Below are positions 2,686 to 34,893 of a stretch of 57,517 nucleotides of DNA, piece by piece (positions within the stretch are counted from its first letter, which is position 1; the number at the start of each line of letters is the position of its first letter). Origin of the DNA: Bacteroidota bacterium (GTDB lineage: Bacteria; Bacteroidota; Ignavibacteria; SZUA-365). The DNA lies in assembly GCA_014860565.1 (NCBI GenBank), contig JACZJN010000155.1, positions 1 through 57,517 on the forward strand, given 5' to 3'. The position numbers and the translations under genes are program-made. The notes under the pieces were generated by a model that searched no databases, was not told the origin of the DNA, and saw nothing but the letters and a program-made list of their open reading frames with translations.

Positions 2686-4080
2686 GTGATTGCGAACGCA
2701 CGATCTCGAAGATACAACCTGACTGGAGGACAAATTACTGAATTAGATACATGTGCTGCAGCGACTCGTACATCCCGTTTGAAGCAAAATATTATCGCAT
2801 TGCTATTAAGGAAGGGGTTTGGCGCAGGTATTTCGTACTTACTGGTGCCCATTGTTCTTGATTACCTAGATCCTGTGCGCTATGGAGTCTGGATAACAAT
2901 GACGTCTGCTGTATCATGGCTATATCTCTTTGATGTGGGGCTAGGAAATGGTATGCAAAACATGGTTGCTTCAGCTTTGGCGCATGCCGACAAGATTTCT
3001 GCAAAGATCTATATCAGCACATCCTATATTGTCGTCACGGTCATAGCGGTTCTGCTTTCTGCAATATTGTTGTTTGTGTATCCACTAATAAATTGGGGAA
3101 CAATTTTCAACACACCTCAAACGATAATTGAGGATGTAACTTTGGCGGTAGCAATCACGGTGTTTTTCCTCCTCTGTCAGTTAGTTGCTCGTCTCATAGG
3201 GTCGATTCTGCGCGCTGATGAGATGCCCGCGTTAGCTGGATATTTCAACACGGCTGGAAGCGTTATGACACTTGTTTGTGTTCTCGTTGCAAAGCGATAT
3301 TATCCTGGTTCAATCAGCCTCCTTACGGCAATATCTGGCATTTCTAATCTCGTACCATTCGTCATCGGTTCTGTCGTTCTATTTAGTACGAAGTATACGG
3401 AGATTAAACCTTCGTTCGAGTGCTTCAAGAGCGATAGAGTGGGTCCTCTATTAAGTCTTAGCGGGAAATTTCTTGTTCTTCAACTGTCTGCCGTTGTGAT
3501 ATTTTCGACAGATTCTATGATAATTTCGCAATTGTTTTCACCAGCAGAAGTTGCGCCCTATGCAATATCAAATAAATACATCGGCGTGGTCATGATTTTC
3601 TTTGGCATTGTGTTGCAACCCTTTTGGGCTTCATTTACGCATGCTCATGAACTGAGAGAAACTGATTGGATAAAAAGGATGGTAGGTGGACTATTAAAAT
3701 TATGGGGGTTCGTTTTACTATTAATTGTAGTTTTGGTACTCATTAGCCCGATCGTGTATCGGTTGTGGCTAGGTTCACAGCTCCGAATACCGTTTATGCT
3801 TACGCTATTAATGGGTGTTCATTTCGCCATTCTTGCGTTTTCGCAGGTCTTTTCAAAGTATATCAATGGCGTCGGGAAATTGAGAGTTCAAACCATCTAC
3901 GCAGTGGTTTCTGGTATTGTGAATATACCACTGTCAGTTTTCTTGGCATCCACCTGCTCGTTGGGCGTAAACGGTGTAATTTTGGCGACAATAATATCCA
4001 CCGCTCCCGTCCTATACCTTGCCCCATATCAGTATTGGCAATTGCTAAACTCACGAGCACGCGGTATTTGGGATCAATAG
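2686..4080 (+). CDS. Oligosaccharide flippase, Wzx-like (MOP superfamily)
   Basis: Predicted inner-membrane flippase moving undecaprenyl-linked repeat units to the periplasm. Seen: a chain of roughly twelve hydrophobic segments, beginning after KQNIIALLLRKGFGAGISYL, with the MOP-like motif DYLDPVRYGVWITMTSAVSW and a loop SKYINGVGKLRVQTIY near the C-terminus, all usual in Wzx proteins. The open frame reaches back to 2497 but that part overlaps wbpD and is not flippase-like. There is no ATG between there and the first membrane segment, so translation must start at a non-ATG codon: GTG 2686, preceded by AAAGGGGAG, or TTG 2779. I give 2686; the true start is uncertain. The ISL3 remnant follows immediately. 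Confidence 0.82.
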   Translation: MIANARSRRYNLTGGQITELDTCAAATRTSRLKQNIIALLLRKGFGAGISYLLVPIVLDYLDPVRYGVWITMTSAVSWLYLFDVGLGNGMQNMVASALAHADKISAKIYISTSYIVVTVIAVLLSAILLFVYPLINWGTIFNTPQTIIEDVTLAVAITVFFLLCQLVARLIGSILRADEMPALAGYFNTAGSVMTLVCVLVAKRYYPGSISLLTAISGISNLVPFVIGSVVLFSTKYTEIKPSFECFKSDRVGPLLSLSGKFLVLQLSAVVIFSTDSMIISQLFSPAEVAPYAISNKYIGVVMIFFGIVLQPFWASFTHAHELRETDWIKRMVGGLLKLWGFVLLLIVVLVLISPIVYRLWLGSQLRIPFMLTLLMGVHFAILAFSQVFSKYINGVGKLRVQTIYAVVSGIVNIPLSVFLASTCSLGVNGVILATIISTAPVLYLAPYQYWQLLNSRARGIWDQ

Positions 4081-24477: not shown

Positions 24478-24570
24478 ATTGCACCACCGAGAACAGAGGG
24501 GGCACAGAGGGCTTTTCTCATCTTTTTTTAGTAATCGCTCTGTGTCCTCTGTGCCCCCAGTGGAGCAATA
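24478..24570. repeat. CACAGAG-family hairpin repeat (MITE-like)
   Basis: Arms ATTGCACCAC...GGCACAGAGGGCTTTT (from 24478) and ...CCTCTGTGCCCCCAGTGGAGCAAT (ending 24570) form an imperfect inverted repeat around an AT-rich centre. It occupies nearly all of the space between the oxidoreductase stop and the next start codon. It is related to the arms at 30383 and 32564. Confidence 0.75.
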
Positions 24571-28863: not shown

Positions 28864-30378
28864 ATGAAAGGACGATACAAATACCCCACGCTTCTCTTTT
28901 TTGACCTGGTGTTCATTGCCGCTGCAATGTCACTGAGTCTGGTTATCAAGGGTGCTGACTTCCTTAGGGCAATCGTCGCATACCGCGAGCCAATGTTAAT
29001 CTTTACTGCAGTGTGGGTTTTGGGGTCAATTCTGCTTCGCAAGTATTCGATCCGGAAAGATTTGAAGATTCACTCAGGGAGCCTTCTTATCATTCGGGAT
29101 AACGTCATTCTCCTTCTGCTCGTGACGTTTGTGATTTTTCTTCTTCAGCAGGATTATTCCCGTGGTGTGCTGCTTGGGGCGGCGCTGTTCACTACCGTGT
29201 TCGAGCTCATTGCGACCTACGCCTACACGCTTGACAAACAGCTCGGGGAAACTAGTCGCTTGGTTGAGGACTATCTCGAGCAGCCAGCGCAGCACGAACC
29301 GATGGTGGAACGTTCCGTCCAGGGAGCCAGGCTTGATGGCCGCATTCGTGATACCATTGTTGAGGAATCCGGTGAAAAAGCGTTTTCGTTTATTCGTCAG
29401 CAGCTCGGAGAAAACCCCGGGCAAACACTCTTCGTATCGACGACGACGAGATTCAATATCGAAACGCAGCCAGATGGTGTGTACGAAAATATCGTGAATC
29501 TGCACCGTATTAATGACATTCCCCGTATCAACAAGTTTTTCGAGTCGATAAACACAAAGATCCCAATGGGCGGTATGTTCTTATGTTGTGTGGAGACGGC
29601 AAAGCAGCGAAAGGCGCGGCTACTGAAGAAATATCCTCCTCTGCTTAATTACATCTACTACCCTCTCGACTACGTTTTCAAACGCGTATTCCCGAAACTA
29701 ACCCTCACCAAGGGGCTCTACTTTCTCGTAACACGCGGCAACAATCGTGTCATGTCCCGTGCTGAGTCCTTGGGACGGCTCTACTCCTGCGGTTTCGAAG
29801 TAATTGGTGTGGAAAACTCCAACGGTCGCATGTGCATCGCCGCACGGAAAGTCAAGGACCCGGCATTCGACATGAATCCGACCTACGGTCCTCTGGTCAA
29901 ACTCCGCCGCCATGGTAAGGACGGCAAGATCATCGGTGTGTACAAGATGCGTACCATGTATCCCTTTTCGGAGTATCTGCAGGATTACGTCTTTAAAAAC
30001 AATAAACTCGCCGACGGCGGCAAGTTCAAAGATGACTTTCGCATCACCGGTCCCGGCCGCATCATGCGCAAATTCTGGCTCGACGAACTGCCGATGCTGC
30101 TGAACTGGGTAAAGGGCGATTTGAAGCTCGTAGGTGTCCGGCCGCTCAGCAAGCATTATTTCAGTCTGTACACGCCCGAACTTCGCCACCGACGTATCAA
30201 GTTCAAGCCCGGCCTCGTGCCCCCGTTCTACGTCGACCTCCCGAAAACGCTTGAAGAGGTGATGGAGTCGGAGGCCCGGTATCTCGACGCGTACGAACAG
30301 CATCCCTGGCAAACCGACTGGCGGTATTTCTGGGCAGCGATGTACAATATCTTCATCAAACGCGCGCGTTCCGGGTAA
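28864..30378 (+). CDS. Membrane sugar-1-phosphate transferase (WcaJ/PGT-like), atypical
   Basis: A 504-aa protein. The first ~125 residues hold about four membrane helices (LLFFDLVFIAAAMSLSLV, LIFTAVWVLGSILL, NVILLLLVTFVIFLL and the following one). The C-terminal part carries bacterial sugar-transferase motifs: GVYKMRTMYPFSEYLQD, DDFRITGPGRIMRKFWLDEL, PMLLNWVKGDLKLVGVRPLS and the end WRYFWAAMYNIF. Such enzymes start repeat units by moving a sugar phosphate to undecaprenyl phosphate. The usual re-entrant helix before the catalytic core is not obvious, and a middle region of ~150 residues is unfamiliar. A second initiating enzyme of a different type is at 54147. Confidence 0.78.
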   Translation: MKGRYKYPTLLFFDLVFIAAAMSLSLVIKGADFLRAIVAYREPMLIFTAVWVLGSILLRKYSIRKDLKIHSGSLLIIRDNVILLLLVTFVIFLLQQDYSRGVLLGAALFTTVFELIATYAYTLDKQLGETSRLVEDYLEQPAQHEPMVERSVQGARLDGRIRDTIVEESGEKAFSFIRQQLGENPGQTLFVSTTTRFNIETQPDGVYENIVNLHRINDIPRINKFFESINTKIPMGGMFLCCVETAKQRKARLLKKYPPLLNYIYYPLDYVFKRVFPKLTLTKGLYFLVTRGNNRVMSRAESLGRLYSCGFEVIGVENSNGRMCIAARKVKDPAFDMNPTYGPLVKLRRHGKDGKIIGVYKMRTMYPFSEYLQDYVFKNNKLADGGKFKDDFRITGPGRIMRKFWLDELPMLLNWVKGDLKLVGVRPLSKHYFSLYTPELRHRRIKFKPGLVPPFYVDLPKTLEEVMESEARYLDAYEQHPWQTDWRYFWAAMYNIFIKRARSG

Positions 30379-30382
30379 GAAT

Positions 30383-30954
30383 AAGAAGTTGAACCACAGA
30401 GGGCTTGAAGGGCTAGGAGGATTTTTTAGATCACGAACCTGTGAATTCCTTCCCGCATCCTCGCTTCATGGAAGTTTAATAGCAGCCCCACATGCTTTTT
30501 CATGAGTTTCAGGTACGTGATGATTTGCGCTTGGTGAACGGGTAGGATTCTATCAACGGCCTTCAACTCGACGATGATCTCATCTGCGACGAGGAGATCC
30601 AACCTGAAACCAGATTCCAACTGTACACCATCGTATTCCAATGGAATCATGACTTGCCGTTGGACCGTATACCCGCATTTAACAAGCTCATGTGCCATAC
30701 AGACTTCGTATGCAGACTCCAGTACGCCAGGCCCCAATGCTGAGTGTACCTTGTAGGCACAACCGATTATCTCGTACGAAATGTGTTTGAGCGTTCCGTG
30801 GTCCATCGTGTCTCCCTGATCGATGCATATCAGCAAAATGCGACACAATCCGATGCAAGCAAACTCAAAATCACGTCCCTGACGCCATAATGACCATAAA
30901 TCCGACCACAACAAAAATCCTCCTCGCCCTTCTAGCTCTCTGTGGTTCAATTCT
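30383..30954. mobile_element. Inverted-repeat element carrying a GxxExxY gene
   Basis: Left arm 30383-30429 (AAGAAGTTGAACCACAGAGG...GGAGGATTTTTTA) and right arm 30912-30954 (AAAAATCCTCCTCG...TCTCTGTGGTTCAATTCT) are inverted copies over about 43 bases, enclosing one gene on the minus strand. The same arms joined without the gene occur at 32564-32650. This looks like a mobile or duplicating unit with a non-autonomous derivative. No target duplication was identified. Confidence 0.65.
30426..30806 (-). CDS. GxxExxY protein (PDDEXK_3 nuclease-like)
   Basis: A 126-aa protein on the minus strand, the only convincing gene in this window that opposes its neighbours. Seen: the family motif GVLESAY, SALGPGVLESAYEVCMAHEL at about residues 21-40, and a PD-(D/E)xK-like core, FRLDLLVADEIIVELKAV, with Asp, Glu and Lys in order. 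The start ATG (30804-30806) has CAGGGAG upstream. A longer frame to 30977 runs through the right arm and the wzi start and is not credible. The family has no settled function. The gene's 3' end lies inside the left repeat arm. It is probably the cargo or the enzyme of the surrounding repeat element. Confidence 0.85.
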   Translation of the reverse strand: MDHGTLKHISYEIIGCAYKVHSALGPGVLESAYEVCMAHELVKCGYTVQRQVMIPLEYDGVQLESGFRLDLLVADEIIVELKAVDRILPVHQAQIITYLKLMKKHVGLLLNFHEARMREGIHRFVI

Positions 30955-32563
30955 GTTTTCACCGACCACGAGAGCACAGAGTGTCCCCGAGCATATATCC
31001 TGGACGACGCTGTACGAGTTTCTCGACGAGCTTGCCAGTGAACAGATCATTTCGCTTAACACATCCGTCAAGCCCTACACACGCGAACTGATCTTCCAGA
31101 AGCTCACTGAAGCTCAGAGTAGCGACGCCTCGCTCTCAAATCGTCAGCGCCAGGAGATCGCCTTCTACCTCCGCGCGTTCCAACTTGAAGCTGGGTCCAA
31201 TGCCCGGCAACCAGGCGACATCGACCTGATCCGAAAAAGCGAGAAGGCGTCGGTTTCCCTTTATCCCACAGGCATCTTTTACAGCGACTCGTTATTCGCA
31301 CTCGGCGTGACTCCCGTACTCGGCCTGCAGTACTTCAGTAATGAGAACGAGTCCTTCTATCACCGTTTTCATGGCGTGAATGCCTTCGGGCGGCTTGGTG
31401 CGAATGTGGGATTCTACGTCAGTCTGCGGGATAACCATGAAAGCATACCGCTGACATCAGAGCATTTCCTCACTGATCGCTATGGCGTGCCTGCCAAGAA
31501 ATCAGGCAACGGCGTCGACTACAGCGAGGCGCGGGGGGGATTGACTGTTGGCTGGGATTGGGGTTCGGTGGGACTGGTGAAAGACCACTTCGCCTGGGGT
31601 AGCGGATACAACGGTGCGAATATCTTCTCTGGCCGCTTCCCTTCGCCGGGACAGCTGACGCTGCACCTGGCTCCTGTGGATTGGTTCGAATTCAATTACG
31701 TCCACGCCTGGCTGGTGTCGGAAGTGCTCGACTCCAGCCGTTCCTACAATACTAGCGAAGGAGTGTATCGCGAGGTATTCCACGACAAGTACCTTGCCGC
31801 GAACCTCTACACCTTTAAGCCGTGGCAAGCGCTGCATGTGTCCTTCGGGAATTCGATTATTTACAGCGACATCGGTGTTCAGGCGGCATACTTGGTACCC
31901 TTCCTGTTCTACAAATCCGTCGACCATACGTTGAACGGTGCTGCGAACAAGACCGGTCAGAACGCCCAAATGTTCCTCGATATCAGCTCGAGGCAGATCA
32001 AACACCTGAATCTGTACACGACGATCTATTTCGACGAACTCAATACCCGCCGTTTTACGGAAGGAAACGATAACAATTTCTTCAGTCTGAAAGCAGGCGC
32101 GCGGCTCAGCAACTGGCCGCTGAAGGATGTGATGGTTACGGCTGAGTATACCCGTACGAATCCGATGACCTACAAGCACAACCTCGATGCCACGACATTC
32201 GAGACCAACAACTATGTGCTGGGTCATTATCTTCGGGATAATGCAGACCAGATCCATCTGTCGGCGATCGTACGTCCTTTTCGCGGACTGCGTGTCCTCG
32301 CTTCTTTTACCCGCGATCGTCGTGGACCAGACATCGCCTACGTCAAGGGCGCTGATGCTGTCAAAGTGCCATTTATGGAAGAAGTCCGGTTCGAGCGACA
32401 GAGTATACGTTTCGAAGCAGGGTACGAAGTCACCCACAACGGTCGTATCTTCGCCGGCATCGACCTGCAAGACGTCACCGGCACCGATGCCGCGAAATAC
32501 GTACCCACAGCGTATCTTGGCACAACCACCACGATATCCGGTGGTTTCCAAATCGGCTTTTAA
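30890..32563 (+). CDS. wzi: Capsule assembly Wzi-family outer-membrane protein
   Basis: A 557-aa secreted beta-barrel-type protein. The signal peptide is MTINPTTTKILLALLALCGS... with likely cleavage at TRA|QS (residues 29-30). The mature N-terminus (WTTLYEFLDELASEQII, SVKPYTRELIFQKLTEA, LSNRQRQEIAFYLRAF) is typical of Bacteroidota-type Wzi-family proteins, and the rest alternates aromatic beta strands, ending in Phe (GGFQIGF). Wzi helps bind capsule to the cell surface. Odd feature: codons 9-22, the hydrophobic core, coincide with the right arm (30912-30954) of the adjacent repeat element, and the ATG itself lies inside that element. No other Met or GTG start is available near the mature region. 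Confidence 0.88.
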   Translation: MTINPTTTKILLALLALCGSILFSPTTRAQSVPEHISWTTLYEFLDELASEQIISLNTSVKPYTRELIFQKLTEAQSSDASLSNRQRQEIAFYLRAFQLEAGSNARQPGDIDLIRKSEKASVSLYPTGIFYSDSLFALGVTPVLGLQYFSNENESFYHRFHGVNAFGRLGANVGFYVSLRDNHESIPLTSEHFLTDRYGVPAKKSGNGVDYSEARGGLTVGWDWGSVGLVKDHFAWGSGYNGANIFSGRFPSPGQLTLHLAPVDWFEFNYVHAWLVSEVLDSSRSYNTSEGVYREVFHDKYLAANLYTFKPWQALHVSFGNSIIYSDIGVQAAYLVPFLFYKSVDHTLNGAANKTGQNAQMFLDISSRQIKHLNLYTTIYFDELNTRRFTEGNDNNFFSLKAGARLSNWPLKDVMVTAEYTRTNPMTYKHNLDATTFETNNYVLGHYLRDNADQIHLSAIVRPFRGLRVLASFTRDRRGPDIAYVKGADAVKVPFMEEVRFERQSIRFEAGYEVTHNGRIFAGIDLQDVTGTDAAKYVPTAYLGTTTTISGGFQIGF

Positions 32564-32650
32564 AGAAGTTGAACCACAGAGGGCAAGAAGCGCTTGGAGG
32601 ACTTTTTAATATTTTTCCTCCTCGCCCTTCCAGTTCTCTGTGGTTGAAAC
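32564..32650. repeat. MITE-like inverted repeat, deletion form of the GxxExxY element
   Basis: An 87-base hairpin that starts right after the wzi stop codon: AGAAGTTGAACCACAGAGGG... GGAGGACTTTTTAATATTTTTCCTCC... CTCTGTGGTTGAAAC (parts quoted). Its two arms match the left and right arms at 30383 and 30912 closely, with no gene between them. It might also act as a transcription terminator for wzi, since the stem is followed and split by A/T runs. Confidence 0.78.
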
Positions 32651-33731: not shown

Positions 33732-33780
33732 CATTGGTTGACACAGAGTACACAGAGTTCACAGAGCACACGAAGGGTTT
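33732..33780 (+). repeat. CACAGAG/CACGAAG half-arm forming the whole gmd-fcl spacer
   Basis: CATTGGTTGACACAGAG... through GAGCACACGAAGGGTTT, ending one base before the fcl ATG. The last 17 bases are identical to 34450-34466 inside fcl. GAAGGG sits at a workable distance from the ATG and may serve as the ribosome binding site. Confidence 0.75.
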
Positions 33781-34842
33781 ATGAATAAGACGGATAAAAT
33801 CTACATTGCCGGGCACACCGGGATGGTCGGTTCAGCGATTTGGCGTCGACTTGAGGCAGAAGGTTTTGTTAATCTGCTCGGGCGTTCATTGAATGAACTC
33901 GATCTCACACGGCAGGCTGATGTTGAAGCATTCTTTCATGCTGAGCGACCGGATTACGTGTTCGTCGCGGCTGCGCGGGTGGGTGGTATCTACGCGAATA
34001 ATGTCTACCGTGCGGAGTTCATTTACCAGAATCTCGCCATACAGAACAACGTCATTCATTCTGCGCATCTGCACGGTGTGAAAAAGCTGCTGTTCCTGGG
34101 TTCATCTTGCATTTATCCGAAGCACGCTCCCCAGCCGATGCAGGAAGAGCATCTGCTGACAGGTGAACTCGAGCAGACGAACGAGCCGTACGCGATTGCG
34201 AAGATCGCGGGATTGAAGATGTGCGAATCCTATAAGCGGCAATATGGGGATAATTTCATCTCGGCGATGCCGACAAATCTGTATGGGTATAATGACAACT
34301 TCGATCTGAAGAACAGTCATGTGTTGCCGGCGTTGATACGGAAGTTTCATCTGGCGAAGCTGTTGCGTTCGAATAACATTCAAGGGTTGGAGAGGGATAT
34401 CGCTGCGAAACCTTTCAACACTGAGAACACGAAGAACACGAAGAACACGGAGCACACGAAGGGTTTGTTAGAAGAACTGGCGGCTTCTGGTGTGAGTGGC
34501 GATGCTGTTGAAGTTTGGGGGACGGGAGCGCCGAAGAGGGAGTTCTTGAACGTGGATGATTGTGCGAGCGCAGTTGTATTCATGATGGAGAACTATGATG
34601 GGGAAGGGCATTTGAATGTCGGGACGGGGGAGGATCTGTCGATTCGGGAGTTGGCGGAGATGGTGAAATCGGTTGTGGGATTTGAAGGGGAGCTGCGATT
34701 CAATCCGGAGTATCCGGACGGGACGCCGCGGAAGCTGATGGATGTGTCTCGGTTGAAGGGTTTGGGATGGGAGCCGAGGATTTCGTTGGAGGAGGGGATA
34801 AGGCAGACGTATGACTGGTATTGTAAGCGTGCAGCGCAGTAG
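33781..34842 (+). CDS. fcl: GDP-L-fucose synthase
   Basis: An epimerase-reductase that makes GDP-L-fucose from the Gmd product. Seen: [18 protein letters not shown] at the N-terminus, [29 protein letters not shown], the Y-x3-K motif [31 protein letters not shown] and [15 protein letters not shown], all diagnostic. Relatives in Bacteroidota have a loop after RKFH; here that loop contains a Thr/Asn/Lys-rich stretch ([19 protein letters not shown], about residues 210-228) encoded by an inserted repeat copy (34416-34467) in frame. The core motifs on both sides are intact, so activity may be kept. Its TAG stop is in the same frame as the following glycosyltransferase. Confidence 0.95.
34416..34467 (+). 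repeat. CACGAAG repeat inserted in frame in fcl
   Basis: Three to four tandem AACACGAAG-type units followed by GAGCACACGAAGGGTTTG, the same 3' end as the spacer repeat at 33764-33780 (17 identical bases). It is translated as a low-complexity [16 protein letters not shown] loop. Confidence 0.8.
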
Positions 34843-34893
34843 ACTTTCTCGACACAGAGCCCACAGAGCTCTCAGAGCGCACGGAGGGCTTTT
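34843..34893 (+). repeat. CACAGAG half-arm at the 5' end of a glycosyltransferase gene
   Basis: GACACAGAGCCCACAGAG... to GCGCACGGAGGGCTTTT. It joins directly to sequence that still reads as glycosyltransferase N-terminus in frame. It contains GGAGG (34883-34887) six bases before an in-frame CTG at 34894. Confidence 0.65.

Follow-up and report, generated by a model that had tools for sequence, protein, structure and literature searches.

A GxxExxY element arm read as the predicted signal-peptide core of a Wzi-like protein in Ignavibacteria

A repeat-derived protein signal has been proposed in Yersinia, where the 168-bp palindromic repeat RU-2 lies in YPO1552 (Delihas 2007, PMC2759123), and Rickettsia palindromic elements (RPE) are palindromic repeats that have entered coding genes in frame (Ogata et al. 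2000, relayed in PMC2229807). The locus reported here is of the type described by Delihas, in that repeat-family sequence likewise appears to form an N-terminal signal in frame, at the start of a wzi-like gene of a Bacteroidota bacterium of the Ignavibacteria. The gene lies within the window, the whole 57,517-nt stretch of contig JACZJN010000155.1 that was analysed (genome G000). The initial annotation had supposed that this would be an unusual case; the Yersinia repeat is a precedent for it.

The element at the 5′ end of wzi

The window carries an element that separates wzi from a bacterial sugar transferase gene (28864–30378, PF02397). The gene of this element, on the reverse strand at 30426–30806, encodes a GxxExxY protein of the PD-(D/E)XK superfamily (PF13366, E = 3.6e-41; TIGR04256, E = 9.4e-43, 145.3 bits vs. 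a curated cut-off of 35). Matching inverted-repeat arms are present on both sides of this gene. The left arm (30384–30426, forward strand) lies directly past the sugar transferase stop and the right arm spans 30913–30954 on the forward strand; they are 89% complementary across 27 nt in an ungapped search, and their local alignment scores 64, whereas shuffling never gave more than 22. No target-site duplication around the element was evident by eye.

Read in frame, the right arm gives wzi codons 9–22, KILLALLALCGSIL. The start codon and n-region (30890–30912, forward strand), the latter with one positive charge, lie within the element between the GxxExxY gene and the right arm, and the c-region (30955–30976, forward strand) leads to a predicted cleavage at A29|Q30, placed by alignment with six relatives in which Q30 is invariant and marks the point where homology with the relatives starts. 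The predicted signal peptide of the window protein is MTINPTTTKILLALLALCGSILFSPTTRA|Q, with 29 residues up to this alignment-based cleavage site. In the wzi frame, the first start codon to follow a stop is ATG 30890, and the stretch from there to the mature region contains no further ATG, GTG or TTG in that frame. No ribosome-binding site can be recognised ahead of this ATG, and a promoter scan yielded no promoter-like sites. Signal peptides were judged from hydropathy and alignment, and export is a prediction. On this sequence evidence, the conclusion that the wzi-proximal arm encodes the hydrophobic core of a predicted signal peptide, and that the element supplies the start codon, is supported. 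Here our results agree with the initial annotation, which had placed the core in the right arm and the start codon inside the element and had noted no other start near the mature region. The GGAGG that it had reported on the minus strand is present but has no evident function. It precedes the GxxExxY start codon (30806) by ~110 nt and does not evidently serve this gene as a ribosome-binding site; the gene has its own AGGGAG ahead of its ATG, as read from the sequence.

The protein encoded at 30890–32563 (forward strand) had no Pfam match up to E = 10, hence the name Wzi-like, and a profile search of solved-structure sequences with it found nothing. A 33%-identical relative passes the PF14052 (Wzi) cut-off (3e-12). 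The AlphaFold2 model of the window protein (pLDDT 59) is of beta-barrel type and has a helical part at its N-terminus; with this low-confidence model, Foldseek returned outer-membrane porins and Wzi 2ynk among many barrels. We therefore treat the protein as a putative outer-membrane beta-barrel of capsule type; such barrels require a signal peptide.

Right after the wzi stop follows a gene-less hairpin with the same arms as the element (32565–32650, forward strand; fold z-score −5.0). The right arms of element and hairpin, read directly from the sequence, are identical at ~30 of 33 positions. In the same register the non-coding hairpin copy gives FLLALPVLCG followed by a stop, whereas the coding copy stays open. 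Genome-wide arm counts were made by sequence patterns only; an arm-derived pattern with up to 3 mismatches matched the genome only at the element and at this hairpin.

Relatives with and without the element

In G005, which corresponds to the uncultured Ignavibacteria assembly CAJXVM010000016.1, Wzi is 75% and gmd 87% identical to those of the window, and the gene order (sugar transferase, element, wzi) is the same. Its arm, spelled differently, encodes a signal core KILWVLWVLCVS in the same codon register, within a signal peptide of 34 residues, and the inverted repeat continues as far as CACTCGTA. In G008, by comparison, wzi is 72% identical, no element lies upstream and another gene stands there instead. 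The G008 signal peptide, MQKLHKILLIALLFLCAMSIQA|Q, has 22 residues, and other element-free relatives have signals of 19–22 residues. Signal peptides appear unrelated in the repeat-free homologues (G008, L065, L067, L068 and L072), and no homology between the arm and the G008 signal-peptide DNA was detectable above codon-shuffled versions, 22% of which score equally high.

The orthologue comparison proposed in the initial annotation thus came out as expected for G008, with a different signal and no arm, whereas G005 also carries an arm-encoded core; a close relative with the same signal DNA but no element, which the annotation had taken as the telling counter-case, was not found. Among 391 genomes of the class, the search for further wzi orthologues returned only relatives of 30–37% identity beyond those already known. 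With two orthologues showing the arrangement and one close orthologue lacking the element, the polarity of the change rests on G008 together with more distant relatives, and no exact empty site is seen because the upstream gene order of G008 differs.

The GxxExxY proteins of the window and G005 wzi loci are 55% identical and are sisters in a 24-row tree (96/95) and in a 134-row tree (SH-aLRT 94). Alternative pairings of the window protein gave p-AU values of 0.046 with L044 and 0.052 with L045, pairing with L048 was not rejected (p-AU 0.11), and pairing with either of the two remaining GxxExxY proteins in its own genome gave 0.001 or less. One old insertion appears to be the likelier, though not certain, reading of these tree tests.

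Arms across the class and in the exopolysaccharide locus

Inverted-repeat arms were found at 91 of the 134 GxxExxY loci surveyed in the class, mostly built of short units (e.g., CTCTGTGG, CTTTGCG or CTTCGTG) that read outward. The window arm has an inner AAAATCCT and an outer CTGTGGTT pattern, as in other GxxExxY elements such as L045. Of the arms surveyed, 182 in all, the pair at wzi are the only ones that form a signal core, and this use of an arm is probably rare, one event among 91 elements rather than a habit. Of outward arm frames, 21% are open and reach a mean hydropathy of at least 1.5 over 10 residues, compared to 14% for shuffled arms, 7% for random places and 2% for inward frames. 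Outward arms are therefore ~3 times likelier than random places to yield an open hydrophobic frame, and the 14% among shuffled arms indicates that this bias is partly one of base composition. No paper describing repeats that flank GxxExxY (TIGR04256)/PDDEXK_3 genes was found in the literature searched. Elsewhere in the survey, the start codon of a mutS-like gene (MSTPLM...) lies within the last nucleotides of another GxxExxY element's arm (L057, L056), and at a GxxExxY locus of G009 (L044) each arm is ~109 nt long and itself hairpin-like.

Across 34 core positions, the coding arm equals its own partner arm at 31 in the window and at 29 in G005, and the two coding arms equal each other at 23; 7 of the 11 columns that differ between window and G005 changed on both arms. 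If transcription ran through it, the region would fold strongly by arm-to-arm pairing (−192 kcal/mol, z −6.2). The partner arm would place Gln (window) or Arg (G005) in the hydrophobic core, where the coding arms place Leu, a contrast that, drawn from two sequences, is suggestive only as a sign of constraint.

Repeats of the ACACAGAG type cluster in the window at junctions of the exopolysaccharide locus (24485–24560, 33742–33775, 34417–34463 and 34853–34880), and matches to a two-unit pattern fall nearly all within this locus in the window genome and likewise in G005. The hairpin at 24485–24560 was examined as a possible further signal-peptide case, which was dismissed because its gene starts beyond the arm. 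An in-frame arm-type repeat of 15 residues (34417–34463, forward strand) sits in a variable loop of GDP-fucose synthase; the same loop (L040, L041) reads TTDYTDYTDD (GATTACACG type) in G005 and is of AACACGGATT type in G008, so that one position holds its own repeat sequence in each of three genomes. The wzi–gmd gap contains a gene-less repeat or hairpin in all three genomes (window 32565–32650; L002 ~3160–3260; L003 on the reverse strand, after wzi), with an arm sequence own to each. The positions of arm-type repeats shared by several genomes are before and after wzi, at the gmd–fcl junction and inside fcl; repeat sequence varies between genomes, and copies at several junctions agree inside one genome. 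Tentatively, a copying process might rewrite the locus copies jointly, coding ones included, with the signal peptide occasionally overwritten and re-selected, although we regard this as doubtful.

Origin of the wzi signal and comparison with known systems

Our preferred reading, with a probability of roughly 0.78, is that a GxxExxY inverted-repeat element inserted at the wzi 5′ end replaced the native signal and has since been kept. The insertion would have taken place in an ancestor of the window genome and G005. Because the wzi-proximal arm, read outward, is pyrimidine-rich, open and hydrophobic, and a start codon was available inside the element, the arm could have taken over as signal n- and h-regions, with the previous c-region and cleavage site following it. 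The arm would then have been kept under two apparent constraints, partner-arm pairing and hydrophobicity. The identity and frame of the arm, its sharing with G005, its absence from G008 and the lack of detectable signal-DNA homology are direct observations. We infer which way the change went, that one insertion underlies both loci, that the arm has been under selection and that the protein is exported with this signal. The initial annotation's view that a mobile repeat donated or replaced the signal is borne out to the extent that the element-free G008 signal differs and is shorter and that G005 shares the arrangement. Its term "exon-like capture" is better exchanged for 5′-end replacement by insertion, because in the window genome the core arm includes neither the c-region nor the cleavage site.

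It seems unlikely to us that G000 and G005 independently received related elements at this one junction and that both insertions yielded a signal by chance. Chance signals would be conceivable because the elements lie close to gene ends and have arms that are hydrophobic when read outward, and the two genomes do differ in arm sequence, start codon and n-region, with only borderline p-AU values against other GxxExxY pairings. However, the GxxExxY proteins are well-supported sisters, the junction, gene orientation and codon register are all the same with no gap, and concerted change, as in the columns altered on both arms, accounts for the differing arms. We consider it very improbable that the arm is itself the native signal peptide, from which the left arm and the downstream hairpin were copied. 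The resemblance of KILLALLALC to the G008 KILLIALLFLC at the protein level invites this idea, but leucine-rich segments resemble one another; at the DNA level the likeness is no better than that of codon shuffles, the arm shows the inner and outer pattern of other GxxExxY elements, and G005 carries a different arm at the same place.

Least probable of all is a misassigned wzi start, with the arm an untranslated leader and the protein not exported through this segment. It would fit the missing ribosome-binding site and the weak n-region charge, but it is contradicted by the absence of another in-frame start ahead of the mature region, by the conserved cleavage Gln and mature part that follow directly, and by G005, which keeps both frame and hydrophobicity.

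If an inserted element did replace the native signal, this would be a comparatively well-documented instance in which a mobile repeat supplied the targeting signal of a protein whose family otherwise brings its own, and the relatives compared represent both sides of the change. Such elements may lend themselves to a signal role because their outward arms tend towards open, hydrophobic frames, and the coding segment appears to be under pairing and hydrophobicity constraints at once.

RU-2 in YPO1552 is a MITE that carries no gene, lies in a small putative protein and is 100% conserved in close strains; the window signal, in contrast, comes from the arm of a gene-carrying element, belongs to a Wzi-like protein and is kept in two diverged genomes with its sequence changed. 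The fucose synthase insert resembles the in-frame palindrome insertion of RPE; as portrayed in PMC2229807, RPE are palindromes that carry no gene and lie within coding genes, whereas the wzi case would replace a targeting signal. With GxxExxY (TIGR04256)/PDDEXK_3 genes that have inverted repeats, the window shares gene family and arm type, and arm use as a signal core is confined, among the loci surveyed, to the two wzi loci. The principle is thus already known, and what this locus adds to it is that the element carries a gene, that the arrangement is kept in diverged genomes and that the coding arm can be compared with its partner.
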